DNA from: Pisaster brevispinus
Lineage: Eukaryota > Echinodermata > Asteroidea > Forcipulatida > Asteriidae
DNA length: 64,000 bases
Direction: 5' to 3'
Assembly (NCBI GenBank): GCA_023634235.1
Contig: JAMKCF010000009.1
Location: forward strand, 9,176,001-9,240,000
Position 1 is the stretch's first letter. Each line of letters starts with the position of its first letter. Both the position numbers and the translations under genes were made by a program. Below the pieces are notes generated by a model. It searched no databases and was not told the origin of the DNA. It worked only from the letters and a program-made list of their open reading frames with translations. Below are positions 15,101 through 61,671 of this stretch, piece by piece.

Positions 15101-18100
15101 GCTGCTTAAGCACAAAAAAGAACCAAGCACAAGACAATTTTGCTTAATACCAGGATAAGGTTACCAGCAAAAATGCCATGGGACATGTACAATGTACCAT
15201 TTTTGAGTGGTATCCTACTTTATATTTGTAAGAAGAAAATTGTTAAGCACTTTTGTATGCTTAAGCAGCTCTATAAAATTAGACCGAGCCCGTGTTTATT
15301 CTCAATTTTTCAACAAGTGTGTTGTTCTAGCTGTCATCAGGAGTCTGACTAAAAAATTAATAACAAAACAAGGTTTTATTAGTGCATTATAAACGACAGA
15401 TTCCTTGATGAGCTTTACGGTTTAAAAGTGCCAAAACATTACTTCTAAAATGCAAAAATAGTAAATTATAGGAGCCAAAATGATGAACATAATGACAATT
15501 GTCCTAGTACAAGACACGACATGCCGACTTTAGGAGCATCATTAACCCCTACACCTTCATGAGTACTTTGAAAGGACTTTGAAAGGATTCAAAGTTAGCC
15601 GTCTTCGTCTTTTATTTCAATGGTGGACAAATATGGATACAATCAACTTAACTTGCAAACTCATTAAATCTTTACCTCTAGCCAGTTGACTGGAGTTTCT
15701 TTTTTATCGGTGGTGATATTTTGGTTGTCCGGACATGACACTATGACTGGTGACAGGTTGTCTGAATGGAGAGAAGTTATATATGAAACTCAAAAAGAAC
15801 AAAATCAGGGGCGCAACAGATCGGTGCAAAAACTTTGTATCTTAATTTTCTGTTAATTATGTTACGCACAGTTCACACAAGCAAGAGACACAATGCAAAC
15901 AAATTGTATCTCATGGCATTGGACTGTTTTTTACACCAGGGATAAATACAGTAATGGTGCGTTTATGAACAAGAGTTTGGTGTGAAATCTTTAATTGGTA
16001 ATACAATGTCTTTGAATTGACACAACTGAATATTATTTTCACAAGTTTTGGCAATGTGGCTGGGACCAAGACCAGCTTTAGTATTTCTCAATCTTGGACT
16101 CAATCTGAACAATCTATGGTCTGAGCTTCAGTCAGTCAGTGGCTTGAGGTTTAAAAAAAACTTTTACTGACCCTGGAACAAGGTTTCTGCACACTTTAGA
16201 ATATCAAATCAAAGACTTTCAAAGATCATTTTAATGCTACCTTAATACAATTTAAGACCGAAAATAACACATTTTATCGCTTTAACGATAACATGCTTTA
16301 TGCACAGAGAAACGAGATTGTCACGTCATGCCTCCACCAATACAATTCGGGTTTAACTATTGGTGGATAAAATGCTACCAACTTAGGTGCGTGTAAGCCA
16401 CACACTCGTGCAGGCAATGAATATAGCAAATTCTTACAAATCTAGGTAATAATAGTTTCGCGGGACAAAACCATAGCTGTATGGATTTGTGAAAAATATG
16501 ATACTGAATGTATAAAAATTCATATCACGCAAAACATAGATAACCTGTTAACATTACAGTGGGCCAATGAGAGTGGTGTTTTGGAATAAACAACCAATGA
16601 ATTCAGCTCTTGCGATGCTTGGGACGCTTAAGCAGGCGGGAAACGGGTTGATTTAATCACTCTTGTCATAGTCTTGCAAAGGTATAGACATACATGAAAT
16701 ATTGGGAAACAATTATTTTCAATTTCCCCACTCCCTCCCGCCCCATTGTAAAGCAACTGCTTGTTGCATTCACTGGTGTGCGTTTTTTAACGGGATTCAC
16801 ACAGCAAATACAAGAGTTTGGGTGAATTTTAATTAAATGGTTTACTTTTCAGCCAAACTTGTTAATTACTTGAAGTTTGAAGATTTCTTTGACTCAGGTT
16901 TTGCATTGAAAAAGAAGTTTTGATAGCGCTCTGATGTACCACAGGGGCTATTTCCGACCGTATGTGCCAAGGTGGAAACTCACAACTTACTTGATTGGTT
17001 AAACTCCTTGTATATGTATGATTACTATTTTACTGTTGTTAAATTTCATTGGGCCTTGTGTGCCCACATGGTTGGGGTCACTGTACCCACACGATTTAAG
17101 TCAGTTCTACTGACATGGTCGGGGTCAGGTGTGCCCTCACGACTTAAGTCAGTTCTACTGACATGGTTGGGGTCAGGTGTGCCCTCACGATTTAAGTCAG
17201 TTCTACTGACATGGTTTGGGGTCTGGTGTGCCCTCATTTAAGTCAGTTCTACTGACATGGTTGGGGTCTGGTGTGCCCTCATTTAAGTCAGTTCTACTGA
17301 CATGGTTGGGGTCTGGTGTGCCCTCATTTAAGTCAGTTCTACTGACATGGTTGGGGTCAGGTGTGCCCTCATTTAAGTCAGTTCTACTGACATGGTTGGG
17401 GTCAGGTGTGCCCTCACAATAGTCAGTTCTACTGACATGGTTTGGGTCAGGTGTACCCGTAATGTTTAGCGGGGTCAGGTGTGCCCCAAGTGCGGTTTTT
17501 TACGTGCGACAGGATTGCCAAACAGTTTTTCGGCATCCCGCACTAATTTTGTTGTTGGAAATAAAAACAGTTTTTCAAGGCTGTGACATTCAATCAAACA
17601 ATTTGTTTCTTTGTCTCATTCGATTCTGTGTATAAGTGAATAGAGCAGGGAAAACAGCTTTACCCATTTACACTTTGTGTTACTTTTTTACATGCAGAGC
17701 ATAATTCAGCTGGTAGGAAAATTCATTACATGCTTCATCCACTTTTTAAAGACCTAAAATAATTGAATTTAATGCTTCTTCTTCTGACCTTAAATTTTGA
17801 TAGTTCAATTAAAGACTTTTTAATACTTTTTTACAATACACAGAAACCCTGCTGGAAGCAAGACCCAGAAGATTGTTTCCTTTTCAGCATTTACACTGAT
17901 CTTTGACCTTATAATCTCTTTATCTGTTACAATCTCTTGATGTAATCTCTTGATGAAGCCAGGCCAGGTTTTAGGCATTGTTAGTTATACATTTTTTCCG
18001 GGGCAAGATAACTTGATAACAAATGTTTTTTCAAAGTTTCATTAAAAAATTAACTTTTAAGCTATCCTACCACAGATTCTCACAAAAATTGTACAATGGC

Positions 18101-24100: not shown

Positions 24101-27100
24101 AGGTAACAAGTGGCTCTTCTCAAAGCTATGTTTACTCAAACATTACTTACTTTTACTACCACCATGCATTGAAATAAAGTCATAAGGCCACGCCACATGG
24201 TGCAATTTACAGGCAACCAGTTCCCAAAGAAGAACAATCTTTCCCATATCAATTTACTCGTTATTTCCTTGGGGACAGTGAGTTACAGCTGGAAGACTGT
24301 CTCATGTGCTGCTAAAGTGTTCCTTATGCATACAGTGCAAGTGGTTGCCTGCAAGTCGCCTGAAAAATTGCCCTATGTGATTTGGCCTTTAGTGTTATTA
24401 GTAATGGGTATACACTTTCTTCACCAACACATTATAGAAAAATATGACTTTCACATCACTTGCCGCTATCAACAAAATGCAGGTTATAATTTTTTTTCAA
24501 CGAGGAAATCTTTAAATCTGATTAAATCACAGAAAAAACACAGGCCTTTTACTTACGTGAACATGTAGGGTTTTGCTCTGTCCACGCCACTAGAGAGGAT
24601 TCACCAGTCTTTTCACATTTCCTACTTTCATTGCCTATCAGTTGGTACCCCGCATTGCAGGTGAAGCTGCAGGTGGATCCATAGATGTTACTTGGGCACC
24701 GGACAAGGGAACCACTGGCTGGTGCTTGTAGAGGCAGGCAGCGTAGAACTAACAAAGTACATAAAGAGTTATCAGGGAATGCCCAAAATGCACAAACATT
24801 TCAGGTTTTCAGCAATGTAATAGACATCCTTGATATCAAAAGAATCCCTTCGACATTTGAAAAGTCATGAAGGTCTGAGCTTCACAGTAAAACAGGATTG
24901 GGGTTTTACATTATCAGTAAACCTTACAAAATTATGTCTTATAGTGCAGTGTATGAATCCCCATCTTACCTTATTTTTTCTACATTGGCCATTTTATTTT
25001 TGCAAACACATTTGGAAGGTTTGTTCAAAGCAAACAGAAACTAAACATAATTTCATTTGTGCACAAATGCCGAGCTGTTTCGCCAAAATTTCTTCAAATT
25101 ACTCAATTGAATATGAACGTTTTTTGTATTCAAAGCAGTAATGATGTATCAAGCCTGTTTAAAAAAGAATTTGGATTATACCACCTTTTATTAGCAATTT
25201 ATGACAAAAAATAAAAAAAAATCATTAAAAAATCATGTGATGACGTCATCATGGCGTCATTTCAGAATTTACAAGAACTTGCCATATCTAACAACCTACC
25301 AAGTTTCAGCCTGAACTCACTTATACTTCGGGAGATACGACTTAAAAAAAGGCACCTTTAATGCCGCGTCACGTGACCCCCGATGACGTCATTGATCTGA
25401 AACTTCACACATATGATGGCTGCCTGACGATCAACATGTGTGTAAATTTTGATGTGATTACACAAAACTTCACCACACACATCTTCAAAAAGTCCATTTT
25501 TAACAGTTTTCAACCTGCTGCTAGAGGGTGCTCGTAAGTATCGTGACATCATCGGTATTTTAAAAAAAATGCACACTCTTGCCAGACACTAACATCGTTG
25601 AAAGCATTTTCATAACATTTAGCACTTTTGAATTACGAGGCACTTCCGGTTTCGACCGGAAGTAGAGGTCATGTGAGGTCACGCACACTGAATAAAATGA
25701 AGACTTAATTAATTTTATCGCTATACAATCCCGCAAACAGAAACCTACGGTCTGTTGTGGCTGATTTGTTACGGATTTTCAAATATTTAAAATAGAAACC
25801 TGATGACGTCACGTGACAGATGATGACGTCATCATGACATCATTGTTTTAGGGGCATTATTGCACCAATGTCTTTCATCACTGAAAGTTTCATTGCAATT
25901 GCTCTTTAGGAACTATGCAAAAGTTTGCTTAAAACGAATTGTGCGTTATCTCAATGACTTCCTGTCTGAAAAATGCAAATAAAAAAAACAACAACTAGAC
26001 ATAATTGCATTTGTGCACAAATGCCGAGCTGTTTCGACATAACTTTTTCAAATTACTCAATTGAATATGAAAGTTTTTTTGTATTCAAAGCAGTTATGAC
26101 GTATCAAGCCTATTTAAAAAAGAATTTGGATTATACCACACTTTTTTAGCAATTTATGACAAAAAGGTGCAAAAAATGAAAAATCATAAAAAATCATGTG
26201 ATGACATCATCATGACGTCAATTCAGAATTTACAAGAACTTGCCAGTATCTAACAACCTACCAAATTTCAACATGATCGCACTAATACTTCGGGAGATAT
26301 ACGACTTCAAAAAAGGCACCTTTAATGCCGCGTCACTTGACTCCCGATGACGTCATTGATCTGAAACTTCACACATATGAGGGCTGCCTGACGGTCAACA
26401 TGTGTGCATATTTTGAAGTGATTACACAAAACTTCACCACACACATCTTCAAAAAGTCCATTTTGCACAGTTTTCAACCTGCCGCTAGAGGGCGCTCGTG
26501 TGTATCGTGACGTCATCGGTATTTTTTTTGAAAAGTAAAAAGAAAATTTGGCAAACATGTCTTTGTATGAAATATAGTTATACGAGTTATTTGTGATTTT
26601 AAATATTTGCATTTTTGAAACAGAAACCTTGATCCAGCCTAAATTGAAAACTGATGACGTCATGATGACGTTATTGCATACTTCTTATCCATACATTGAG
26701 ATTTATAAGTTTGTGGTAAGTGTTTAACTTTTTTGAACTTGCAACAGGTTTTTAGCAAAACTGACTATTTTTAAATAACTTGTCACGAGAGGGTGTTGTT
26801 GAAGATAATTACGTCAATACTCTATTAATTGGAAGGCCAAGCGTCAAACTTTATTTCATACAGAGAGAGCATGTCAAAATTACAGATCATATTGTTTGCA
26901 GACCTTAAAACGAGGCCCGGGAATATTTATTTTCCTTTGAACTTCCGGAAGTAAAGGTGTTATGGGGTCACCCTTTGTATGTGATTTGTATAACTCGGCC
27001 AAAACTTTTTTATGGTGCAAGTACCTTACATGTAGCATTTATGGTTCTCCGATTATGATTTTTAAAAATATTAAACGTTTATTTATTGTTATGACGTCAT

Positions 27101-30100
27101 CGATGACGTCATCGGACCGAAACAATTTGGGTACCATATACATACTACGATCTATATACAAAGTAAGTTTCTAGACAAAACCCTTCTTGGTTTATGAGAA
27201 ATGAACGTTTGAAATCTGAATTTTGAACTTCCGGTTTCAACCGGAAGTAAAGGTGTTACGGGGTCACCCTTTGAATGTGATTTGTATAACTCGGCCGGAG
27301 CTTTTTTATGGTGCAAGTACCTAACATGTAGCATTTATGGTTCTCCGATTATGATTTTTTAAAATATTAAACGTTTTTTTATTGTTATGACGTCATCAAT
27401 GACGTCATCGGACCGAAACATTTTGGGTGTCATATACATACTACGATCTACATAGTTAGTAAGTTTCAAGACAAAACCCTTCTTGGTTTATGAGATATGA
27501 ACGTTTGAAATCTGAATTTTGAACTTCCGGTTTCAACCGGAAGCAAAGGTCATATGGTGTCACATTGTGTATGTGACTTGCATAATTTGGCAAGAGCTTT
27601 TTTATTGTGCAAGTATCTTACATGTAGCATTTGTGATTCTCAAATTAGGATCTTTTTAAATATTAAACGTTGATTTATTGTTATGACGTCATCAATGACA
27701 TCATCAAACCAAAATTCACATATTTATATTTAAACACAAAGATCTAAATACTTAGTAAGTTTTAAGTCTCAAACATTTTTAGTTCATGAGTAATGACGAG
27801 TTTTCTTTTTGTAAGAAAATTTAACTTCCGGTTTTGACCGGAAGTAAAGGTCACATGGGGTCACACCTAATGAAAGATTTGTAGAACTGTTCAAGGGACT
27901 TAAGATGATATAATGATTAAAGGTGTAGCATCTTTTGTTTATAAGATATAACGTTTTCCTCCAAAAAAACCTTCAACGTCCGGTTTCGACCGGAAGTAAA
28001 GGTCACATGGGGTCACATTCTGTGTAAGAGTTGTAACAGGAATGTTGAACTTTCATATGAAGCAAAGTTCTTGTATTTATCATTTATGGTTCTCTAGATA
28101 TGACGATTTACAATATTTCTCGTTATTTTTCATTTTTGATGTTATGACGTCATCGATGACGTCATCATCCCGAAAATGTTCCTGTTTCGTCTATACACTA
28201 AGGTCTAAGTACAAGACAAGTTTCAAGTCTCTACGAGTTATACTTTTTCCGAAATCCTGCCGAGAAAGAAAGTGGGAAGAAGAAGACAAGGAAAAAAACA
28301 AAACAGTACAATAACAATAGGTTTTCGGCTGTTAGCCGAACATCTAAAAAATAAAAATAAAATAAAATAATAATAATAAACTAGAAATTGAATTTTTGTT
28401 TGCTACAAAAATACGGTGTTCGTGATCGATGTGATTAGATTAAGATTTAAAGATATTTTATTCTATCACCTCGATTTGTGGTTCAGGAGTAAGATTTTGT
28501 TCCAATATAAATCTTCAACTTCCGGTTTGAACCAAAAACTTAGGTCAAATGAGGTCATACTGTGTAGCACTAGGTAAGTCCTAGGAGCTTTCTGTAATGC
28601 CGTGTAGTTGATAAAAATCCAAAGTGTGGTTCGGGAGTTATGATTGTTTCAAGTTTTGAATTTGATCATCCGGTTTGAAACGAAAGTCAAGGTCAAATTG
28701 GGTCGCATTCTGTGTGTCAATTCTTAAGTTTATAAATATTTTGCCAATGATGTAAAGATTGCAAAAAAAACATAGTGTGCCTTAATAGAAGTTATGATTT
28801 TTTGAAACATAAATTTTTAACTTCCGGTTTGAACCGAGAGTCAGTGTTAAATGAGGACACACTGTCTATCGTTTGTTAAGTCTTAGGAGCTCTTTCTGAT
28901 GACGTTTACTTAATAAAAATACAATGAGTGGTTGAGGAGTTATTAATTTGTTCATTATTTAATTCATCTTCCGGTTTGAACCGGAAGTCAAGGTCGAAGG
29001 CATAACATTTTGTGTATCGTTTCTTCACTTGTTATCTACCTTCCAAATGATGCATAGATTGTAAAAATCCAATTTGTGGTTCAGAAGTTATGATTTTTTG
29101 AAACATTAAATTTCAACTTCCGGTTTGAACCGGAAGTTAAGGTCAAACGGGTCAGAGATTATATACCGCGTCAATACCGTTCAGACGACGTATGGATTGT
29201 AACAATCCATTGTGTGGTTAAGGAGTTATGAATTTTTCGAAAATTACACGGACTACCATTATTTGGATGTGCATTATACAATGAAATAGCGAGCGACGCC
29301 AAATGTATTCCTATAGGTGGCTTTACAGTTTCAATCAAAGATCGTATAGCGCCGTAGGCGGTAACGATCTTTGGTTTCAATACAGACATGTTAACTTAAA
29401 CTACGCGCGCAATGTACATGTGGCTGTATGGACGTGTAGCGAGACCTTGACTACACGTGCTCGTACACGTGCGTTGCTGGTACAGGTTTGACATACATTG
29501 TATTTACGTGTAGGCCTACCACTACCGTGCGTTGTCATACAAGGTCGTTCAACAGACACTTGCGCTTTGCCGCCCAGTTTTGACCAGATGCAAAGATTAA
29601 AATGCTTTAATCTCTGTGCAAAAGTTTCGGCAGAATAACTCATCTATAACCTGATGCAAAATTCATGTTAAAATATGACGTAGTTTTTGAGATATGAATT
29701 TTGTGAAATTTTCAACTTCCGGTTTGAACCGGAAGTCAAGGTCAAATGGGGTCATGTTGTGTGTAGCGTGTGTTGACCTTTTAACGACCAATCCGATGAT
29801 GTGTAGATTGTAAAAATCTGACATGTGGTTCATGAGTTATGATTTTTTACAAATATTAAACTTTGATTTAATGTAATTCAATACCCGATGACGTCATCAT
29901 GACATAATCAAGTTTGTGTTGTCTTGATACTGAGATTTAAGTGTCCAATGAGTTTCAATGTTCAGGTAACTTTTAATCTTGAGTTATGTCGAAGAAAAGC
30001 CCAAAACATGATTTTTTTAACGAAAAAAAATCGAAGGCAAACTTCAACCCAGGGTCATTTTCGGAAACAAAGGTCATACGATTTTGACGTTAACTTTTTA

Positions 30101-33100
30101 AATGTTGCCCCAGTCTCGATCTATCAGATGCCAAACTTTGAACATCGTAGCTTTCAACTTCAATGAAATACAACAACTACAATAGGGTCATTTAAAAAAA
30201 ATTGAAAACCTTGTAATTCGACAACTGATGATGTCATCATAACGTCATCAAGTGTGTGCCGTCCACATATAAAGGTTCAATTGTCTGATGAGTTTCAAGG
30301 TTTAAATCAATTTTAATTTTGAGTTATGACAAAAATTCGAAAAAACACAAAGGCAGACTTTGACCTTCCGTTAAGACCGGAAGTAAAGGTCATACGATTT
30401 TGGCGTTAACTTTTCAAATGTTGCTCCAGTCTTGATTTATAAGATGCCCAAATATGAGCATCCTAGCTTTCAAATTCACGAAGATACACCGAATAGAAAA
30501 TGGTCATTTTCAATTTTGAAAACCTTGTTATTCGACACCAGATGACGTCATAATGACGTCATGACAACTGTGACGTCCTCATATTAAGGTTCAATTGTCT
30601 GATGAGTTTCAAGATTCAATTCAGTTTCAATCTTGAGTTATGCTGTAGAGAAGAGTTCTCGGGAAGAAGATGGAGAAGAAAAAAAAACTAGACATTGAAT
30701 TTTTGTTTGCTACAAAAACACGGTGTTCGTGATCGATGATGTAGATAAATTATGATTGAACAATATTTCATTTTATCAACCTGATTTGTGCCCATTGTAA
30801 TGCCGTGTAGTTAATAAAAATGCAATGTGTGGTTCAGGAGTTATGATTATTTCAAATATTGAATTTGATCATCCGGTTTGAACCAGAAGTCAAAGTCAAA
30901 TTGGGTCCCATTCTGTGTGTCATTTTTTAAGTTGTTAAATACTTTGCCAATGATGTAAAGATTGCAAAAAAACCAAAGTGTGCCTGAGAAGTTATGATTT
31001 TTTGAAAAATTATTTTTTAACTTCCGGTTTGAACCGGAAGTCAGTGTTAATTGAGGTCACACTGTGTATCGTTTGTTAAGTCTGAAGAGCTCTTTCTGAT
31101 GACGTTTACTTGATATAAATACAATGAGTGGTTGAGGAGTTATTCCTTTTTTTAATTATTAAATTCATCTTCCGGTATGAACCGGAAGTCAAGGTCAAAT
31201 GGCATAACATTTTGTGTATCGTTTCATACCTTCCAAATGATGCATAAATTTTACAAATCCAATGTGTGGTTCAGAAGTTATGATTTTTTGAAACATGAAA
31301 TTCCAACTTCCGGCTTGAACCGGAAGTTAAGGTCAAATGGGTCATATTTTGTGTAGCGCGTGTTTGATTTATCAAGACCGTTCAGACGACGTTTGGATTG
31401 TGAAAATCCAACGTGTGGTTAAGGAGTTATGAATTTTTCAATTATTACACGGACTATCATTAGTTGAGCTCTGTAAATAATGACCATTCATGTGATATAG
31501 CGCCCTCATGTGACATGTACATGTACTGGCAAGGCTGCGTGGACTTTGAACCTTATAAACAAGGGAGCGGAACGGCCAGCTACTGTGTACAGTGTCGGCG
31601 AATGTTTGTGTTGGCCTACACTATCATGCGTTGTCACACGATGAAAGTCAACAGACACATGCGCTTTGACGCCCAGTTTTGACCAGATGCAAAGATTAAA
31701 ATGCTATAATCTCTGTGCAAAAGTTTCGGCAGAATAACTCATTTATAACCTGATGCTAAATTCATGTTAAAATATGCCGTAGTTTTTGAGATTTGAATTT
31801 TGAAATGTTCAACTTCCGGTTTGAACCGGAAGTCAAGGTAAAATGGGGTCATGTTGTGTGTAGCGTTTGTTGACCTTTTAACGACCAATCCGATGATGTG
31901 TAGATTGTAAAAATCCGACATGTGGTTCATGAGTTATGATTTTTTACAAATATTAAGCTTTGATTTAATGTAATTCAATACCCGGTGACGTCATCATGAC
32001 ATAATCAAGTTTGTGTCGTCTTGATACTAAGATTTAAGTGTCCAATGAGTTTCAATGTTCAGGTAACTTTTAATCTTGAGTTATGCCGTAAAAAAGCCCA
32101 AAACATGATTTTTTTAAGGAAAATCAACGAAGGCAAATTTCGACCCAGGGTAACGACCCGGAAGTTAAGGTCATACGATTTTGACGTTAACTTTTCAAAT
32201 GATGCCCCAGTCTTGGTCTATCATATGCCCAATTATGAACATCATACCTTTGAAATTTACGAAGATACAGCAAATAGAAAAAGGTCAGTTTTTTACTTTA
32301 AAAACCTTGTAATTCGACACCCGATGACGTCATCATAACGTCATCAAGTCTGTGCCGTCCTCATATCAAGGTTCAATTGTCTGATGAGTTTCAAGGTTAA
32401 AATCAATTTTAATTTTGAGTTATGACCAAAATTAAAAAAGACCCTAAAACGCAGACTTTGACCTTCCGTTAAGACCGGAAGTAAAGGTCGTACGATTTTG
32501 GCGTTAACTTTTCAAATGTTAGCCCAGTCTTGATTTATAAGATGCCCAATTATGAGCATCCTAGCTTTCAAATTCACGAAGATACAGCAAATAGAAAATA
32601 GTCATTTTTCAACTTTAAAAACCTTGTAATTCGACACCTGATGACGTCATCATGACGTCATGACAACTGTGCCGTCTTCATATTGAGGTTTAACTGTCTG
32701 ATGAGTTTCAAGGTTCAATTCAGTTTCAATGTTGAGTTATGCTGTAGAGAAGAGTTCTAGGGAAGAAGAAGATGGAGAAGAAAAAAAAAAAAAAAAAAAA
32801 ACAGAACAAAAACAATAGGTGTTCGTGCACATGTTGCACGAACACCTAAAAAAAAGTAGACATAGAATTTTTGTTTATTACAAAAATACGGTGTTCGGTG
32901 GAACGTTACATGATGACGTACCTCAAAAACTTTGTACATAAAAAGATGATTTTTTATACAATGTGTTGTTTTTATAGTTAAACTTGTACCACACTTTGTA
33001 ACAACTCCCGTTTCTTGACAAATGTTTATGTTTGTGTTACATTGGCATCAGGTTTTTTGGTTTTATTTTGCACCTCAAAGCCCTTTAAAAATTTCGCCCA

Positions 33101-36100
33101 TCTGGCACGGGATATTGTACATACAGATTTTGCAATGCCAGTTGTATTATACTATTTCAATTAATTATTTGTATTTTCCTGTTTAACCGGAAGTCAAGGT
33201 TAAATGGTTAAGTTGAATGTTGTGTATGTCGTTTCTTAAGTTTCTTTAGTTATTACTATCAATAAATACAAATTCAAATGTGTTGTTGAGAAATTATTTT
33301 TCTTATGTACCGCGTGTTTAATTTATCAATACCGTTCAGACGACGTATGGATTGTAACAATCCATTGTGTGGTTAAGGAGTTATGAATTTTTCAAACATT
33401 ACACGGACTACCATTATTTGGATGTGCAATATACAATAAAATAGCGAGCGACGCCAAAAGTATTTCTATAGATGGCTTTACAGTTTCAATCAAAGATCGT
33501 ATAGCGCCGTAGGCGGTAACTATCTTTGGTTTAAATAAAGACATGTTAACTTAAACTACGCGCGCAATGTACATGTGGCTGTATGGACGTGTAGCGAGAC
33601 CTTGACTTCACGTGCTCGTACACGTGCGTGGCTGGTACAGGTTTGACATACATTTTATTTACGTGTAGGCCTACACTACCGTGCGTTGTCTTACAAGGTC
33701 GTTCAACAGACACTTGCGCTTTGCCGCCCAGTTTTGACCAGATGCAAAGATTAAAATGCTATAATCTCTGTGCAAAAGTTTCGGCAGAATAACTCATCTA
33801 TAACCTGATGCAAAATTCATGTTAAAATATGACGTAGTTTTTGAGATATGAATTTTGTGAAATTTTCAACTTCCGGTTTGAACTGGAAGTCAAGGTCAAA
33901 TGGGGTCATGTTGTGTGTAGCATTTGTTGACCTTTTAACGACCAATCCGATGATGTGTAGATTGTAAAAATCCGACACGTGGTTCATGAGTTATGATTTT
34001 TTACAAATATTAAACATTGATTTAATGTAATTCAATACCCGATGACGTCATCATGACATCATCATGTTTGTGGCGTCTTGATGATATTGTTCACATCTCT
34101 TATGAGTTTAAATGTTCAAATCAATCTCAATCTTGAGTTATGCTGTAGAAAAGCCAAAAACATGACTTTTTGAAGGAAAATCAACGAAGGCAAACTTCGA
34201 CCCAGGGTAACGACCCGGAAGTTAAGGTCATACGATTTTGACGTTAACTTTTCAAATGTTGTCCAAGTCTTTATCTATTTGATGCCTAAGTATGAACATC
34301 ATAGCTTTTATATTCGTCGAGATACAGCAACAAGCAAATGGTCATTTTTCAACATTAAAAACCTTGTCATGACGTCATCAATGTCGTCATCATTCCAAAA
34401 AAGTGGCGGTTTCATCTACTCACTATTGCCTATGTACACAGTAAGTCTTAAGTTTGTACAAGCTTTACTTTTGTTTAAAATTGCTGGAGAAGGTTCAGAG
34501 GGAAAGAAGAACGCGAGGAAAAAAACTAGACATAGAATTTTTGTTTATTACAAAAATACGGTGTTCGGTGGAACGTTGCATGATGACGTAGTTCAAAAAC
34601 ATTGAACATAAAAAGATGAATTTTTATACAATGTGTTGTTTTTTATAGTTAAACTTGTACCACACTTTGTAACAACTCCCGTTTCTTGACAAATGTTTAT
34701 GTTTGTGTTACATTGGCATCAGGTTTTTGGGGTTTATTTTGCACCTCAAAGCCCTTTAAAAATTTCGCCCATCTGGCACGGGATATTGTACATACAGATT
34801 GTGCAATGCCAGTTGTATTATATTATTTCAATTAATTATTTGTATTTTCCTGTTTAACCGGAAGTCAAGATTAAATGGTTAAGTTGAATGTTGTGTATGT
34901 CGTTTCTTAAGTTTCTTAAGTTATTACTATCAATAAATATTAATTCAAATGTGTTGTTGAGAAATTATTTTTCTTGTGTACCGCGTGTTTAATTTTTCAA
35001 TACCGTTCAGACGACGTATGGATTGTAACAATCCATTGTGTGGTTAAGGAGTTATGAATTTTTCAAATATTACACGGACTACCATTATTTGGATGTGCAA
35101 TATACCATGAAATAGCGAGCGACGCCAAATGTATTCCTATAGGTGGCTTTACAGTTTCAATCAAAGATCGTATAGCGACGGCGCTAACAATCTTTGGTTT
35201 CAATACAGACATGTTAACTTAAAAACCACGCACACAATGTACATGTGGCTGTATGGACGTGTAGTAGCGAGACCTTGACTACACGTGCTCGTACACGTGC
35301 GTGGCTGGTAGACACTTGTGCTTTGATGTCAAGTTTGAACCAAATGCAAAGATTAAAATGTTATTATTTCTGTGCAAAATTTACGGCAGGATAACTCATC
35401 TATATCCTGATGCAAAATTCAGGTTAAAAGGTTGAATAGTTTTTGAGATATGAATTTTTCAAACTTTCAAATTCGAATTTTAACCGGAAGTCAAGGTCAA
35501 ATGGGGTCATGTTGTGTGTAGCATTTGTTGACCTTTTAACGACCAATCCGATGATGTGTAAATTGTAAAAATCCAACATGTGGTTCATGAGTTATGATTT
35601 TTTACAAATAATAAACTTTGATTTAATGTAATTCAATACCCGATGACGTCATCATGACATCATTAAGCTTGTGTCGTCTTGATACTAAGGTTCAACTGTC
35701 TGGTGAGTTTCAACTATCAGTTACTTGTAGCTTTTGTTAATCTTTATGCAAGATCATAGCATGAAGGTTTGTCATATGAAACTTCAACTTCCGGTTTTCA
35801 CAGGAACTAAAGGTCAACTGGGGTCACACTCTGTAGAAGATATCTAGAATTGCCCAAAAGCTTTGAAATGGTGTAAGGCCATGAGAATGAAAATGATAGA
35901 TTTGCGTCCACCGCCCGCTGGCTCTGAAAGCTACCGCCGAAAAATTTCATTATTTTCAAAAAAATTCATTTTTTTCACAAAAAGGACTCTGCATCACAAA
36001 TTTTCAAGTTTCAAATCATCAAACAACGGTAAAAGGTTATATTTACGCATTTTATTAGTAGTATACAAGCAGGGTTCTCCACAGGGTGGACAATGTACAA

Positions 36101-39100
36101 TAATAACATCTCTCATGATAGCGCGGGGTCGACTTAATTATTGAGTCTTTGAGACAAGGTTCCGTTCATCGACTAAAAATGTAGTCAGGATGCCCTGCGA
36201 CACAGAGAAAAATGCACGCGAAATGCCGTTACGAAATAGCCGACCTCTGGGTACCCGTCGCTGCACACTATTAACGGTGGATTGTGCATGTGTACATGTA
36301 CGTCGGGATTCTGTTGCCCGGGCGCTCAACGATTTTGTCCTGTCGCTACATTTTTTTAACGGGCGCATTTGGTATTTTGAGAATTTTGAACGGACGTTTT
36401 TTTTTTAGTACGCATGGTATGTGAGACAGATGTAGGGAAATCTCAGGAGTTTGTGTACCCAATATAGCAAGATCACTAGCATTAATAACTACATACACAC
36501 TTGTTATTATTATTGCAATTACATCGTTGAAGAAGCTTACTACGAGAAAATAAGGAGTAATGAAAAATGAAAAAAAGCCTCATGTCATTTCAAAAATGCC
36601 CGGACGCAAATCTATAACTTTCATTCACATGGCCTAATGATTATTAATGTACCACGTTTCATTAATAAGATACACATTTTTGTATGTGCAAACTTATACT
36701 TCCGGTTTGGACCGGAAGTGAAGGTGAAATGGGGTCACACATTGTAAACATTTGTAGAATCGTCTAAGGGTTTTAAAATCACGTAATTATATTAACAAAA
36801 ACATTTAAGTAAATGAGATACGATTTTTTATTTACAAAATTTCAACTTCCGGTTTCGACCGGAAGTAAAGGTCAAATGGGGTCACACTGTGTGTAAGAAG
36901 TGTTTAATACCTCAAGAGCTTTTATATGGCACAATTATCATGTATGTAGCATATATGGTTTTTGAGATATGATTATTTTAACATAAAACTTCAATTTAAC
37001 GTAATGACGTCATCGATGACGTCATCATTCCAAAAATTGTTTTTTGTCATGTACACACTGTGTTCTAGGTAATTGGAAAGTTTCAAGTCGGTACAAGCTT
37101 TAGTTTTGGAGATAGCAAAATAATTTTTTTTTCGACCTCGTCTACGATTTTCGTTGTGACGTAGCTATGACGTCACGTAATGAATTTCTAGAATGCTCGT
37201 GAGCTAAACAAAATATTATTCATTGAAAGTTTTTTCATATTTTGCTTCACTTAGGCTCCAGAGCCCCAAATAACATAATTTGTACCTTTAACTTCCGATT
37301 TCAACCGGAAGTCAAGGTCAAATGGGGTCATGTTGTGTGTAGCATTTGTTGACCTTTTAACGACCAATTCGATGTTGTGTAGATTGTAAAAATCCAACAT
37401 GTGGTTCATGAGTTATGATTTTTTACAAATATTAAACTTTGATTTAATGTAATTCAATACCCGATGACGTCATCATGACATCATCATGTTTGTGGCGTTT
37501 TGATGATAATGTTCAATTGCCTTATGAGTTTCAATGTTCAAATCAATTTCAATTTTGAGTTATGACAAAAATTTGAATTTTTTTACGAAAAAACACAAAG
37601 GCAGACTTTGACCTTCCGTTAAGACCGGAAGTGAAGGTCATACGATTTTGGCGTTAACTTTTCAAATGTTGCCCCAATCTTGATCTATCATATGCCCAAT
37701 TATGAGTTTCATAGCTTTCAAATTCACGAAGATACAGCACAAAGCAAATGGTCTGTTTTCAACATTAAAAACCTTGTCATGACGTCATCAATGTCGTCAT
37801 CATTCCAAAAAAGTGGCGGTTTCATCTACTCACTATTGCCTATGTACACAGTAAGTTTTAAGTTTGTACGAGCTTTACTTTTGTTTAAAATTGCTGGAGA
37901 AGGTTCGGAGGGAAAGAAGAACACGAGGAAACTAGACCTAGAATTTTTGTTTATTACAAAAATACGGTGTTCGGTGGTACGTTACATGATGACGTAGTTC
38001 AAAAAACATTGAACATAAAAAGATGAATTTTTATACAATGTGTTGTTTTTTATAGTTAAACTTGTACCACACTTTGTAACAACTCCCGTTTCTTGAGAAA
38101 TGTTTATGTTTGTGTTACATTGGCATCAGGTTTTTTGGTTTTATTTTGCACCTCAAAGCCCTTTAAAAATTTCGCCCATCTGGCACGGGATATTGTACAT
38201 ACAGATTTTGCAATGCCAGTTGTATTATATTAATTTAATTAATTATTTGTATATTCCTGTTTAACCGGAAGTCAAGGTTAAATGGTTAAGTTGAATATTA
38301 TGTATGTCGTTTCTTAAGTTTCTTAAGTTATTAATATCAATAAATACAAATTCAAATGTGTTGTTGAGAAATTATTTTTCTTGTGTACCGCGTGTTTAAT
38401 TTATCAATACCGTTCAGACGACGTATGGATTGTAACAATCCATTGTGTGGTTAAGGAGTTATGAATTTTTCAAATATTACACGGACTACCATTATTTGGA
38501 TGTGCAATATACAATGAATACAATGAAATAGCGAGCGACGCCAAAAGTATTCCTATAGGTGGCTTTACAGTTTCAATCAAAGATCGTATAGCGCCGTAGG
38601 CGGTAACGATCTTTGGTTTCAATACAGACATGTTAACTTAAACTACGCGCGCAATGTACATGTGGCTGTATGGACGTGTAGCGAGACCTTGACTACACGT
38701 GCTCGTACACGTGCGTGGCTGGTACAGGTTTGACACATTGTATTTACGTGTAGGCCTACACTACCGTGCGTTGTCGTACAAGGTCGTTCAATAGACACTT
38801 GCGCTTTGACGCCCAGTTTTGACCAGATGCAAAGATTAAAATGCTATAATCTCTGTGCAAAAGTTTCGGCAGAATAACTCATCTATAACCTGATGCAAAA
38901 TTCATGTTAAAATATGACGTAGTTTTTGAGATATGAATTTTGTGAAATTTTCAACTTCCGGTTTGAACCGGAAGTCAAGGTCAAAGGGGGTCATGTTGTG
39001 TGTAGCGTGTGTTAACCTTTTAACGACTAATCCGATGATGTGTAGATTGTAAAAATCCGACATGTGGTTCATGAGTTATGATTTTGTACAAATATTAAAC

Positions 39101-39590
39101 ATTGATTTAATGTAATTCAATACCCGATGACGTCATCATGACATCATCATGTTTGTGGCCTCTTGATGATAATGTCCAATTGCCTTATGAGTTTCAATGT
39201 TCAAATCAATTTCAATTTTGAGTTATGACAAAAATTTGATTTTTTTGACGAAAAAACACAAAGGCAGACTTTGACCTTCCGTTAAGACCGGAAGTGAAGG
39301 TCATGCGATTTTTGCGTTAACTTTTCAAATGTTGCCCCAATCTTGATGTATCAGATGCCCAACTATGAGTTGCATAGCTGTCAAATTCACGAAGATACAG
39401 CAATTAGAAAATTGTCATTTTTAACTTTAAAAACCTTGTCATGACGTCATCAATGTCGTCATCATTCCAACAAAATGGCGGTTTCATCTACTCACTATTG
39501 CCTATGTACACAGTAAGTTTTAAGTTTGTACAAGCTTTACTTTTGTTTAAAATTGCTGGAGAAGGTTCGGAGGGAAAGAAGAACACGAGG

Positions 39591-39623
<33 letters not shown>

Positions 39624-42600
39624 ATAACAATAACAATAGTTGTTCGGCTGTTAGCCGAACACCTAAAAAAAAAACATAACAGTAACAATAGTTGTTCGGC
39701 TGTTGGCCGAACACCTAAAAAAAAAAAAAAAACAGAACAAAAAGCACATATTGCACGAACACCTGAATAAAAAAACTTCAACAAAAACAAGAGCTGTTTC
39801 GCAGCGCTGCGCTACAAAACATAAGGGTAAGGGGGGATCTAGAGAAATATGAGCCATGGCTGTCTGCTGAGATTATACTGTATTCTTACCATGCACAGTG
39901 ATGTAGACATCACAGCGTCTGCTATTTGAAGCTTGGTCTGTGGCAATGTAAGTCAAACGTGTTGTTCCTTCAGTAAATGATGACCCAGAGCCCTGGGAAA
40001 TATCCAAGCTGGAGACAGAACAAATCAACCTGATCTCAGTCAAACAATATCAAAGGTCAATAAACCGTAAAGCGAAATAATTTTGTAGTGAACATTGTTA
40101 ACATAGACATAACAAACGTTTTAACCTTGGCAAAAGTGGAATTTTTATGGCACTGGAAACAGTTACCATGTGAACTAGAATGGGTGATGCAAGAATGAAG
40201 CAGACTTACTAACAAATCAAGTGTTCTGGAAAGGGTGCACAAGCTTCGAATTAAGTCAACAATGGAAAATTATCTGGTATATGTGATGCTGCTTAGCGTC
40301 TCAAAGTCCCCAATCCAAACAATTTAATACAATATACCGTTTACTCAAATGTATTTGAACATGCGGTAGTTTTGACACAAAAATTGACAACATGGTAAGA
40401 GGAGATGGTCAGTTGGTTGGGAGGAGATGCTGAATGTGAAGTCTGGCAAAGTGACCGGAATAACTTTCATTTTGTTGTAACACACACCTGACAACATTTA
40501 CAACCCCAGAGTTATCGGTTGCTACCGGTGCTTGAAAGATGACAACAGCTTGCCGCATTCCTGGTGGAGCAGTCTTCTCAAGATACATTGGGCAGCTCTC
40601 ATTAAACACTGGGGATTGGTGATCTGTTACATTCAAGTTAGGGATAATATTAACAACCTCAAAAGTGATAGTTCCTTTTAAACATTCTATTCCCATTAAA
40701 TATTATAACACCCCTTACAAATATTCTGACTGGTTTAGAGCACCCCACTTGATATGTCTTAATTTTACTAAAAGGCTGCGCGAACACGACGCGCTATACA
40801 CGCAGCAAACAAGGTAGTATAACCATAGCAACTGATGTATTATCCTATGGCAACCGATGTACTATCCCATGCCAACCAATGTACTATACCCATAGCAACA
40901 GCAACTTACCGTAATCTTCAGCATATTAGCCGCCCGGTGTATAAGCCGCAATGCCCAGAAATTGTCAAAATAACATTTAGTTGTCAGTGTATAAGGCGCC
41001 TGGCGTATAAGCCGCAGCAGCGACCGCATACACAGAGGGGCCGTGCGTGTTTGCCGTCCTTTGTGGTGATGTACAGTGACTGGCGGGCGGCACATCAGTC
41101 ATTGTATATCGCCACAAAGTATGAGTTGCGTTGCATTGAAGTAAAAATGTATTTGATGTAACACCATCGATCGTTATTGAAATCCTCAATTAGAATGGTC
41201 TGCAGTCAAGTGGGCCTATTTTCTTTTTTTAAGTGATTGGCCGGCACATCACTTTACGTGTGGAAACAAGCGGCCCACTTTCTAGACCACCCGACGGGTT
41301 TTGGGAGGGCGGGCCGCCCTCCTTAAATTTCAGGCTGCCCTGCCAAAGAATTGGCTGCCCTGGCAAAATAATTAACCGCCCTGTCAGAAATTGATGAACA
41401 CAACTTTTATCCCAGCGCGGAACGCTGATACAAGTTTCCTTCCACACAGACATTCTTCCACCAGGCCTCACTCAAATGAGTAGCCGTGTTGGGAAGCTTG
41501 CGGACCGCCAAATCGCTGCATTGCGATCACCTTAAACCGATCGGCCGGCTGTGACACACAGCCAGTTGACAGCCGCGGTATACAGTACATGTGTAGCATG
41601 CATCAATTGAGCCTAAATCAGCACCTGATTGGTCCGCTTCCACGAAAGGTTATGTATTATTCATGATACTCCATGCCTGCTGTGTGTTGATCAGAGACGA
41701 CACGACCGGAACCGCATGGCTGGTCGTGCGGTCCAACAACTAGTCTGGCAACAAGGATACTGCTTCATACGCGTTTCGTTGGTCTGAGCGTTATTGTATG
41801 TGAAAGGTGATTGGACAGCGTATTTGCTAACAATAAGCAATGACCAAAAAAGAGGTGCCCGCTCTAAAGAAAACATGCAGATTATAACGTTCTTGAATTC
41901 TCTCAAAAGCTAAGCTAAGAAATGCAGGTTTTTTAAAAGAAGCTCCCAACTGTTTCACAAAGTGTAAAGATTATTATCACTTTTCAAGAACCAGATGGAT
42001 ATATAAGCCATGAAATAATGTGTAAGTTGTTTCTGCGGGGGGTTTCTGAAGGTTAAATAACACATTTTTCATTGACGATTTAATTTCTTTAGACTGCAGT
42101 TTTTCACGTCACATCGTGATCAAACAACTGGTTACCTGCTTCTTTACGGCAAAAGAATGGTACAAGCGGTCACCAGCAAAAGTCATAATCGAAACGAGCA
42201 TGATATGGGCCCCAAGTTTCACGACCCTCCCTCGGCTCGAAAGATGTGCTGGGGTTCTAAACATTTCTTCAACACCGTCACACCACACATGCCATGTTTT
42301 GCAGGTTTTTTTGTTGTTTCGCTTAAGAACAAGAGTATTTTTTCATCTAGAATATTTCACAAACAATCTTTCTTAAAAAAGTGTACGTTGGTTTTTTTTC
42401 TTCAATATTAAAACGTCGGCGTATAAGCTGCCCGGCATATTAGTCGCCCGGCGTATAAGCCGCAGAAGTTTTTCTCTGGGCCAAAATCAATGTATAAGTT
42501 GCGGCTTATATGCTGAAGATTACGGGTGGTACCTTGATGTCTAGGCACAGTATATGTATGGTTAGGTGATCCCCGGAGCATTCTATTTTGCCAAGGTTTG

Positions 42601-54600: not shown

Positions 54601-57600
54601 ACAGCAGGAGACATCACATGAGAGGCAAACATTAGTGTTTGGAAAAACACAACCATTTTAACCAGTTTAAGTCCGTATCTGAGCTTCAGCTACAGCTACG
54701 GCTGTTGCTAAGGGTGTTGTAAAGGATGTCCTATACTTCAACGCATGGTGCTGGGGTGACCCAGCCATAGCCTTAGCCATAAATGTAGTAAATAGCCGTA
54801 AATGTAGCCACCAATTCAGCCATGGCCTTACTTACGTGTACATGATGGTTTGGTCCCTGACCACATCCTTTTACTTTGACATTTGCGCGTGTTTTGTCCT
54901 CCAGTAATGGAATATCCATTGGTACATTGAATTGTACACGTCGATCCATACAAGTTTTGATGGGAACAGGAGACATACCCCATGGAGACTATTGGATGGA
55001 TCCCACATCTTATTTCTTCAAAAAGAAACAAAAAATAACAGAATTTGAGAGTGAAAGTTAGAATCTATTAGAAAGAATCTACATAAGTAGGAAATATCAA
55101 CTGAATGAAATTTGTGATGGTCTCTACATGAAATATCAGATTTGTGTTGACAACCCCTTCTGTCAACCAAGCATAGCCTATATTAATCGATGCTGTCATC
55201 TCACCCCCTAGCAAAGTCGCCTACAACAACGTCTCCCCAAGCAAAGTCTGCCCAAGGCGAAGTTGAAGTGCCATTACTCCCATTAGATTGTGTTCTGATA
55301 TGTCATAGTCATACACTTAGTCAGGCTAAACTTTAATGCTGGAATCTCTACTGACTAAGCGCAACAGGCAACAGTGTATCAACCAAACCATCAGTGCTAC
55401 GTTCAATAGACAACATACAAAAATCATGAATTTACGAGTTGAATTGGGTAACAATTTGGGGGTACGAACATTTTCTTGGGCATTACAAGTTGGGTCCGAC
55501 TACACAAGTAAGAGTTGACGAGTATTTTCTACCCCGTTGTTACAAATCATTGACTTGGAGCACAACAAATGATCGTGAGTACAATTAAATGCCTGATGTT
55601 GCATCTTTGACGATTTGAGTCTTGAGAATCCAGTCAGCGATTTGAAAGATATTATTATTAATGTGTGGTCTTTTTGTTTTTGTCATTTTGAGGGCATTTT
55701 TGTGGCTGGGTGTTTGGAAAATCATAGCAAAATGACGATTGTATTGTTGAGTAAGAACTTGTCAGGAGCGCTAGTACTTTTACTAGTAGTAGTATTTGTA
55801 CGACCGAAGATTTCCACAATTTTTTTTGAAGGAGTACAGCGCCCCAGCCCAGTTACTAATACTAGTACTGTAGTACAGTCATTTGACCAGTTCGGGATCA
55901 CTTTTTGAATTCACATTGTTTTTGGTTGCAATCTCTTTGATTCTATTCTGAATCAGTAGCTTGCCCTCTATTGCAAACCAATACTCCCATTCATAAAACT
56001 GTCTCTCAAGGACACAAACTTCACAAGTGTGTTGGCATGGACATGGACTTCCTTTCTCCAGAGAATTTCAACAGCAGCGCAAAAATCCAGCAACAAAAAC
56101 ACAAAACAACAGCAAAGGCAAATGAAAAGGTGAAGCACGCCTAAAAGCAACATTGACCCAAATATCTATTCTTACAGTCGCAATTTCCTCCTCCAAGTTT
56201 CATTTTCTCTCAAAAAAACAATATTCCTACAAGAATTTGTTGAAGAAATGTATCTTAAAAGCAACAAATAAACTTTCGACTGCAGCAGTAAGATTTTACC
56301 TCACTGAGTGCGGCACCATTTGACACAATAAGAGATGCTGAGTAGTGAGTGATCCCGAACTGGTCAAGGGTACGATGCCCCCCAAAAGACGATTTCTGTA
56401 ATTTGTCTCCTCAAAAAAACAAGACGACTGCTCAGTATTTACCTCTGAAATATTGTTTACACATTCTAAGCATTTAACATAAATGTTATTCGCCCTGGCG
56501 TTCAAATTTTTAAGGTGAGAAGTTTAACAGCGTTTTTCAACCAACATTTTTTTTTTTAAATAATGAACAAAATCGCAGACAAACTTTTAAAAAATTGCCA
56601 TAATTTATTTGTTGATGAAGTTTGGAACCTTATTTTGGGTTTGTTGGTTAATTGCATATTATTCTTCACATGTATCAACAGAAATTGGTAATGTGAGAAG
56701 TAACTTAATTATGGGGTTGTTGCAAAGTTGAAGTGATCCCGAACTGGTCAATGATCCCGAACTGGTCAAATGACTGTAGTAGTACCGTACTACCATAATC
56801 ATAATGCCACCATGATTTCAAATTTACCACCTTGTTGGGCTGTTAGGGTTCTCTTTGAACATCGGTTTTATCATAATCGCCATTACATGATAAGAACTAT
56901 GTAAATAAAAGAGAGCCACAATACTTAACAATAACAGCCCAACAAGGTCACAGGTGAGCTGTATTAACAAATGAATAAGTTAAGAATAAATAAGATTACC
57001 AGATTACCTTCCACTGTGATTTTGAACGAACACAAATGTCCGTTTTTGTTCCCTAGTCCATCGGAAGCACTATATTTGATGGTGTATGGAGAATTCTGGG
57101 CACTAAACCTATTGCCAGAGTTGGGATTATGGTCCTCCCTTCCAATACTGAATAGAAGCGAAAGGAAAGTAAACACCACATTAAAATATAAAGCACACAG
57201 TCACAGAGCAGACGACCCTCCTTCTCTGTCGTCAAGTTTGGTCAAAATGTCCTGTGCGCCCTCAAGTTTCACTTCCTTGCCAACTAGCACGTTTAGGAGA
57301 TCAATGAGCCTGAACATCTGACGTCACACTTCCAGACTCGTGAATAGACCTTTCCATTGTTGATAAACAAACAGCGCTGATTGGTTGGCATGGACCGCCG
57401 AATGTTAGTAAAACATTCAATAGTGATAACAGATGTTTTACCCAAATCCAACATTTTTGGTAAACTTCTAATTAACTAAAATACCTCCCATGATCGGTTG
57501 CTTTGTTTCCATTAAATTCAACACTAATTTTGAATATTTGTGTATTGTTACAAACTGTAGTTATCTGTTTTTGTTTTGCATTTATGGGTTCCATAGTTTT

Positions 57601-61565: not shown

Positions 61566-61663
61566 TATTGTGTTGAAAGTTTACTCGAGCGGTTCAATCT
61601 TGAGTGTAGTCGTTCAACTTCGTTTGGTCACGGAGTGGTTCATCAAGCTAGACCCATCCGTGG

Positions 61664-61670
61664 TTTTATA
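61664..61670 (-). promoter_or_regulatory. TATA box of the SVEP1-like gene
   Basis: The minus strand reads TATAAAA here, about 100 bp upstream of the start codon at 61565. An initiator-like CCACTCC lies at 61638-61632, about 34 bp downstream, which would give a 5' UTR of about 70 nt. A run of about 18 G lies just upstream (about 61697-61713). The position fits a TATA-driven core promoter. The start site itself is inferred. Confidence 0.6.
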
Positions 61671-61671
61671 T

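Follow-up and report, generated by a model that had tools for sequence, protein, structure and literature searches.

Elements of the HINE type, which are non-autonomous Helentrons, are defined by their ends (Thomas et al., 2014; PMC4067079), and such elements are also described in the Pacific oyster as Cg_HINEs (PMC7492417). The present work concerns a motif-rich array in the genome of the sea star Pisaster brevispinus, located in a stretch of 64,000 nucleotides (assembly GCA_023634235.1, contig JAMKCF010000009.1, positions 9,176,001 to 9,240,000 of the forward strand) that is referred to below as the window. Read on the minus strand, the array consists of HINE-type elements nested in one another.

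The comparisons that follow draw on parts of the published accounts. The DINE-1/HINE elements of Drosophila and mite share with the array a palindromic 5' subterminal inverted repeat (subTIR), a 3' subTIR, a T-rich target and a 3' palindrome about 8-35 bp from the end; long module arrays and a conserved motif block set the array apart from the elements in that account, which also cites sea urchin Tsp as DINE-1-like (PMC4067079). The oyster Cg_HINEs resemble the array in their Helentron ends (5' subTIR with inverted repeat, 3' subTIR, palindrome) and in their central tandem repeats of 140-180 bp, fixed orientation, oligo-T insertion and lack of a target-site duplication (TSD). The available part of that account mentions no transcription-factor cassette, whereas nesting and a module core common to several families are features of the array (PMC7492417). 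The Helitrons of Caenorhabditis elegans with heat shock elements likewise belong to the Helitron class and have spread host-factor sites genome-wide; HSF-1 binding has been shown for them and their transposase genes respond to that factor, whereas the present elements combine several putative site types known from sequence alone (PMC6927752). The CERP2/CELE2 elements at HIM-17 promoters of Caenorhabditis are, like those of the array, non-autonomous DNA elements with paired motifs, but they are miniature inverted-repeat transposable elements rather than Helentrons, and some have been co-opted as promoters, as shown by conservation and reporters (PMC9757741).

HINEs with central repeats and, in Caenorhabditis, Helitrons carrying host-factor sites are thus already known; what appears to be new is that a cassette of several sites was kept up at the level of lineages, across HINE families, and that the ends nest within one another. 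Among the titles listed by a literature search, none dealt with this HINE family or with the upkeep of motifs in such elements; most subscription papers, like the Repbase reports, lay outside its scope, so that prior publication is possible.

Element Anatomy and Families

The 5' subTIR (End B, minus strand) is palindromic and lies near the terminus, as in the HINE definition, and reads T(n)AGGTGTTCGGC..GCCGAACACCT in the alpha family and T(n)AGCTGTTTCGC..GCGAAACAGCT in the beta family. At the opposite end (End A), the 3' subTIR occupies nucleotides 33-42 from the terminus as CGAACACCTT in alpha and, likewise, CGAAACAGCTC in beta. This agrees with HINE anatomy, in which the 3' subTIR is complementary to the 5' one and lies about 38-60 bp from the 3' terminus (PMC4067079); here it is slightly nearer than in the mite. 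The 3' palindrome, GTTTTTGT..ACAAAAAC, stands 11 nt from the terminus, the last four of these being CTAG, and thus within the 8-35 bp given for HINEs. On the plus strand the pieces accordingly start with A(n)|CTAGACAT, a stem-loop and [AG][GC]TGTT.CG, and close with AACAA.AG[GC]TGTT.CG..hairpin..CGAACACCT or CGAAACAGCT followed by an A-rich run. Most of the End A copies listed are preceded by an A-rich tract, and insertion was mostly into A/T tracts. The longest stop-to-stop frame in the array comprises 143 amino acids.

Insertion without a TSD is evident where the element of locus L017 can be compared with a paralogous empty site at window positions 1717-1935 (86% over 225 bp, 1-2 nt ambiguous), the one clean empty site among five probes. 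The stretch at 1717-1935 is itself a copy of another repeat, in which the L017 insertion is lacking. A canonical Helitron was considered and rejected: the 3' CTAG fits CTRR, but the opposite end is T(n)AG.. and not TC.

Besides the window, 20 loci were fetched from the genome. HINE ends are present in the window and in 17 of these loci, the exceptions being L011, L014 and L021, and both end types occur in nine of the 20. By their termini at least three families can be distinguished: alpha (elements E3-E7 of Table 1), beta (E1 with the first part of E2) and delta. The last is known from one locus (L044 4168-4501, C10:6503967 on), with the subTIR AAGCTGTTCCG and two modules carrying the same ETS/nuclear-receptor (NR) block. 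L042, a putative autonomous Helentron, has a long frame that ends about 4 kb before these delta modules; positions 1-270 of L042 consist of tandem repeats of about 54 bp, apparently inside this frame and upstream of its Helitron_like_N domain.

Nested Order of the Ends

Among 57 neighbouring pairs of ends in 19 loci and the window, AA was found 16 times, BB 22, AB 13 and BA 6, in an automated scan that misses some ends (e.g., 25041 and 39786 of the window). Nested ends in equal number are seen in L018 (AAAABBBB; 4,4), L020 (AABB; 2,2) and L012 (AABB; 2,2). In L013, on our reading, comparison with L016, L017 and L023 shows inner and outer ends to pair by type. In the window, a beta end pair (25041, 39786) brackets alpha elements, the End B at 39786 being the sole beta End B found there. 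The window contains seven copies of End A and six of End B, two of them degraded, so that at least one end has been lost; a second beta End A (25995) is without a remaining beta partner. Plain tandem duplication predicts the order ABAB and was rejected because the observed order is mostly nested. The simplest account of array growth is that new copies serially entered the A/T tract beside the 5' subTIR of older ones; this insertion history we infer from the stack.

Two of the fetched loci, L009 (C1:667000-676999) and L010 (C1:739500-749499), lie about 72 kb apart and hold the same stack of beta HINEs with the same end spacing. Either segmental duplication or an assembly duplicate could account for this likeness, and L010 was excluded from the counts of module profile, arm pairs, CpG, end order, CRE and core ratio.

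Motif Content and Order

A preliminary description of this DNA had proposed an intronic array of cAMP response elements (CREs), ETS palindromes and nuclear-receptor sites in a fixed order. The CRE word TGACGTCA occurs 34 times in the window versus 0.79 expected (100 dinucleotide shuffles, none of which reached 34), and 32 of these sites are inside the array and two outside. The ETS palindrome ACTTCCGGTTTNNACCGGAAGT is found in 10 exact copies and 19 at up to two mismatches, all 19 within the array, which also holds all window copies of ACTTCCGG (17) and CCGGAAGT (26). The motif words are therefore real and beyond chance, as had been claimed. Neighbouring CREs form 12 pairs at 11 bp and eight at 12 bp start-to-start (up to one mismatch per site), and the 22-bp perfect palindromes described at 27091, 28144 and 37004 are all exact. 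A single orientation of the repeat is indicated by the strand bias of GAGTTATGA (17 on the plus strand, none on the minus) and by the self-matches of the array, all of them direct among the 120 of 154 window self-matches listed.

The order of the motifs proved looser than described. Upstream of the ETS/NR site, GAG[TA]TATGA is present in 21 of 31 cases, and 0 of 1000 shifted controls (mean 5.5) reach that number. A CRE within 260 bp downstream accompanies 20 of the 31 sites, a number not beyond shifting (control 16.7; 134 of 1000 reach 20). Both are present in 16 of 31 modules (control 3.7; 0 of 1000 reach 16), so the complete order stands in these. The upstream GAGTTATGA is thus well placed in the modules, and the downstream CRE is placed no better than after shifting. 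The composite AAGGTCA-N4-GGGTCA, previously read as a direct repeat spaced by four nucleotides (DR4), has nine exact occurrences. Its second half-site is not specially kept, with divergence ratios to the spacer of 0.70, 0.98 and 0.87 in shallow, middle and deep comparisons (defined below), and the DR4 as a unit was rejected; a single extended half-site, TNAAGGTCA, fits better.

We take CCGGAAGT to be an ETS-type word; CCGG-N6-CCGG presumably also fits the CP2/Grainyhead pattern, which gives an alternative reading of the palindrome. The core thus reads as an ETS word joined to the extended nuclear-receptor half-site TNAAGGTCA. The latter is the published ERR response element, in which N is free (PMC10178695). 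In the modules N is free as well: where AAGGTCA is exact and preceded by T, the base at N is C in 31 cases, T in nine, A in nine and G in four.

Conservation of the Core

Divergence was measured on modules found with a spacer-only profile, in which the motif block was blanked; it gave 144 module matches, of which the 104 spanning the block were counted. An earlier alignment of motif-chosen units (42 anchors; eight of the ten with five mismatches excluded as non-homologous, two kept) was superseded by this set. The majority base accounts for a fraction of 0.90 in the right ETS arm and AAGGTCA, 0.52 at the N between them and 0.70 in the spacer. The palindrome is asymmetric, its right arm being better kept in 46 units and the left in 20, with 38 equal; the left arm decays faster.

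Pairs of modules were classed by spacer divergence as shallow (below 10%; 149 pairs), middle (20-40%; 1,606 pairs) or deep (at least 40%; 3,271 pairs). For the core CCGGAAGT-N-AAGGTCA (15 columns), the ratio of motif to spacer divergence in these three classes is 1.15, 0.60 and 0.37. Module pairs are non-independent, and the corresponding locus bootstrap intervals are 0.50-1.87, 0.47-0.81 and 0.28-0.53; the deep ratio was below the shallow one in 292 of 300 bootstraps. In the deep class none of 144 sliding 15-column windows beats the core, and exclusion of CpG columns leaves the trend unchanged (1.09 to 0.29). The CRE profile, with 71 of 78 matches counted, gives a similar course for the first CRE, with ratios of 1.26 in the shallow bin and then 0.40, 0.74, 0.47, 0.44 and 0.43, that is, 0.43-0.47 beyond 30% spacer divergence.

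Within the window, three comparisons (E5/E7, E1/E2 and two E2 modules) reveal no significant motif constraint (p=0.74, 0.77 and 0.14). Since deep lineages keep the core and recent copies lose it about as fast as the spacer, the constraint acted on transposon lineages, with none detectable on this array. Copies that have landed appear to decay freely, although the bootstrap interval of the shallow class is wide. Equal divergence of motifs and spacers had been named in the preliminary description as an argument against a role of the sites: divergence is indeed equal at shallow depth and unequal at deep depth. Of the two alternatives raised there, a repeat family that spreads motif modules agrees with the HINE stack and its thousands of relatives, and selection on the sites at this locus is unsupported.

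CpG Content

CpG has an observed/expected (o/e) ratio of 1.09 within the array, versus 0.50 elsewhere in the window; with the CRE and ETS words removed, the array still has 1.00. The ratio is higher within elements than in their flanks at all 19 loci (pooled 1.03 vs 0.70). Changes of CpG to TG/CA affect 42 of 192 sites in four aligned pairs, versus 20 of 142 for the GpC control, a weak excess. The high CpG could mean either that the elements are young or that they are little methylated in the germline, both of which fit the base composition. At the far end of the window (56001-64000) CpG o/e also climbs, from values of about 0.3-0.5 to values of 0.7-0.9; there no homology to the array is seen among the listed self-matches.

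Genome-Wide Dispersal and Putative Autonomous Partners

The 550-Mb genome contains 3,529 exact copies of the palindrome (1864 on the plus and 1665 on the minus strand), and the reversed control none. One alpha-like 3' terminus has 506 copies within three mismatches (247 plus, 259 minus; reversed control 0), and all 100 places listed of these 506 are exact, which suggests recent activity. Beyond this genome, two patterns had no copies in viral contigs, and none were found in prokaryote-only genome contigs. At least 150 matches to Helitron_like_N are present (171 candidates, 150 scored), as against none in 14 control genomes; eight have open frames of more than 3,100 amino acids, and a driving machinery therefore exists in the genome. 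Of the 150 scored matches, 132 lie on contig C1 (G000) at about 7-25 Mb, which may reflect the picking of candidates or a Helentron-rich chromosome.

Host Intron

The array fills one intron of a minus-strand gene with EGF, HYR and sushi domains, and all elements are oriented in the sense of this gene. The Pfam matches (EGF, sushi, HYR) are to its other exons; the two exons flanking the array were typed by reading only, and these minus-strand exons with GT/AG sites bear out the intronic location first described.

Origin of the Array and Alternative Explanations

The explanation that we regard as probable is that the array consists of self-nested non-autonomous Helentrons, whose cassette of an ETS word with TNAAGGTCA and CRE pairs was kept as its carriers transpose better. 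Each HINE copy would have entered the A/T-rich tract beside the 5' subTIR of an older one. The internal modules of about 150 bp carry the cassette, ETS-type CCGGAAGT joined to TNAAGGTCA plus CRE pairs, and copies bearing it would leave more descendants. The most likely route is that host factors would be recruited and the element would stay in open, unmethylated germline chromatin, where rolling-circle proteins could act. The identity of the bound proteins, the benefit of binding to transposition and any effect on the host gene are putative.

More tentatively, and with less confidence than in the above, Helentron lineages could be seen as maintaining a selfish cis-regulatory cassette (ETS half-site with ERR/NR5A-type TNAAGGTCA, CRE pairs) that would open their copies in the germline. 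Thousands of copies would then seed the genome with hypomethylated clusters of sites, and a preference of copies for piling into one another would yield intronic enhancer-like arrays.

Several observations weigh against the probable explanation. End A and End B are unequal in number in L009 (3/5), L013 (2/3), L016 (3/6) and L027 (1/4; two copies of End A in a separate listing of ends). No autonomous partner could be linked to the termini: on contig C1, one of 23 exact termini lies within 15 kb of the 132 Helitron_like_N matches, where 2.5 are expected; of 34 exact termini on five other contigs none is closer than 26 kb to such a match, and exact CCGGAAGTNAAGGTCA is absent from 15 Helentron loci over about 1.5 kb on either side of the domain. 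Units identified through their motifs served as the seed of the spacer profile, and the fetched loci were chosen for holding an exact palindrome. In the middle class 16 of 144 sliding windows beat the core (93 of 144 in the shallow one); the shallow interval is wide, and 24 within-locus shallow pairs give a ratio of 0.75. For the first CRE the ratio has already fallen to 0.40 at 10-20% spacer divergence, and the spacer is kept at least as well as the second CRE (0.72 vs 0.65). The four in-window pairs pooled show 46/678 motif versus 353/3,772 spacer changes (p=0.034), a result driven by E3/E4, in which change is lower in motifs (0.074 vs 0.131, p=0.001). The names of transcription factors other than ERR are those we presume from motif resemblance.

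A serious though unlikely alternative is an ordinary HINE with central tandem repeats, in which the words are simply the module consensus without function and their upkeep comes from alignment, seeding or recent descent. Central repeats of 140-180 bp are common in oyster HINEs, in whose monomers two short segments are also relatively conserved between clusters (PMC7492417), and the recent copies are without detectable constraint. What speaks for the cassette instead is that the core is best kept in the deep comparisons, even though the spacer alone served to find and align the units, and that the same block occurs in three families with different termini.

The nearest rival to the cassette explanation, which we hold to be rather improbable, makes the block a site of the transposition machinery (Helentron Rep, endonuclease, RPA) or an origin or strand-switch site. 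Constraint on lineages but not on landed copies is just what a cis-acting transposition signal should show, and the asymmetry of the palindrome points the same way. The signature structures named as common to Helentrons and HINEs are terminal (PMC4067079), whereas the modules are mid-element. Several separate words of the block moreover match sites of host type (CRE, ETS, TNAAGGTCA).

A role of this array as an enhancer of the EGF/HYR/sushi host gene, kept under selection, is very improbable: motif density, the CpG excess over the rest of the window and the lower motif change in E3/E4 would suit it, but that excess is general to the elements, thousands of like copies exist and the other in-window comparisons are without significant constraint. 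Hardly credible is a palindrome kept as a DNA or RNA hairpin or cruciform, as many copies with perfect arms might suggest, since among 933 arm-pair cells a change in a single arm is seen in 209 and changes in the two arms together in 32, only 10 of the latter being complementary versus about six by chance, the left arm decays faster, and a search of the modules for known RNA (hammerhead or other) gave nothing above the Rfam gathering score (three sub-threshold matches).

If the cassette was kept for helping the element, it would be a clear case of selection on the regulatory content of a transposon, in which constraint is measured among lineages but is not detectable among recent copies. The genome would then offer a large natural library of near-identical modules differing in their intact sites, from which accessibility, methylation and effects on neighbouring genes could be read directly. 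Dense intronic motif arrays can, on this explanation, arise without host selection, which calls for caution in enhancer calling by motif clustering.

Coordinates and Further Observations

Table 1. Features of the array and its flanks (positions in the window)
Feature	Position	Strand	Remarks
Sushi-type exon	~24555-24748	-	GT/AG sites; flanks array
Array	~25041-39811		motif-rich stretch
Whole nested HINE stack	25041..39811	-	outermost is a beta-family element
Outermost beta ends	3' terminus 25041; 5' subTIR 39786-39811	-	3' terminus of AGCTGTTTCG subTIR type; far arm of 5' subTIR degraded
E1, beta-family HINE body	25041..25994	-	one ETS palindrome (25642), four exact CREs
E2	25995..28347	-	up to ~26525 beta-type (3' end, body), followed by modules of ~296 bp that hold paired CREs; End B at 28313
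Example CRE pair TGACGTCATCGATGACGTCA	28145..28164	unstranded	12-bp spacing; core of 22-bp palindrome; 20 array pairs at 11 or 12 bp
E3, alpha-family HINE	28381..30687	-	~148-bp ETS/NR modules and CRE-pair blocks
Example 3' terminus (End A)	28381..28422	-	on plus strand: A|CTAGA..stem-loop..GGTGTTCG
Other End A positions	25041, 25995, 30688, 32856, 34526, 37932	-	
Example ETS/NR module	29689..29842	+	GAGATATGA - ACTTCCGGTTTGAACCGGAAGT - C - AAGGTCA - AATG - GGGTCA - spacer - GAGTTATGA
E4, alpha-family	30688..32849	-	90% identity to E3 (1187 columns); palindromic 5' subTIR (End B) at ~32811-32849
E5, alpha-family	32856..34525	-	92.5% identity to E7 over 1684 columns
E6, alpha-family	34526..37931	-	interrupted by terminal inverted repeat (TIR) element at 35877-36634
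E7, alpha-family	37932..39592	-	innermost of last nest
Stacked End B copies (5' subTIR palindromes)	39632..39766	-	at 39632 and 39684; partial one near 39750
HYR-type exon	~39890-40008	-	GT/AG sites; flanks array

E1 has homologues in L009, L010, L018 and L027 and carries two further words, GTCACGTGAC (25368, 25808) and CTAGAGGG (25521). Both are additions of the beta family. The latter, which we take to resemble a CTCF site, stands as CCGCTAGAGGGCGC at 26482 and also occurs once outside the array, as CTAGAGGG at 8222. The TIR element within E6 has 34-bp terminal inverted repeats (91%) and TAA on either flank, presumably as in elements of the PIF/Harbinger type. Two other repeats were noted in the window. 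A 45-bp minisatellite (17066-17458; 8.5 copies, 92% matches) lies between exons of the host gene, and the segment 19007-19864 contains a repeat in direct and inverted copies. In L012 the HINE insertion is flanked by a relative of this repeat (74-78% over 62-69 bp).

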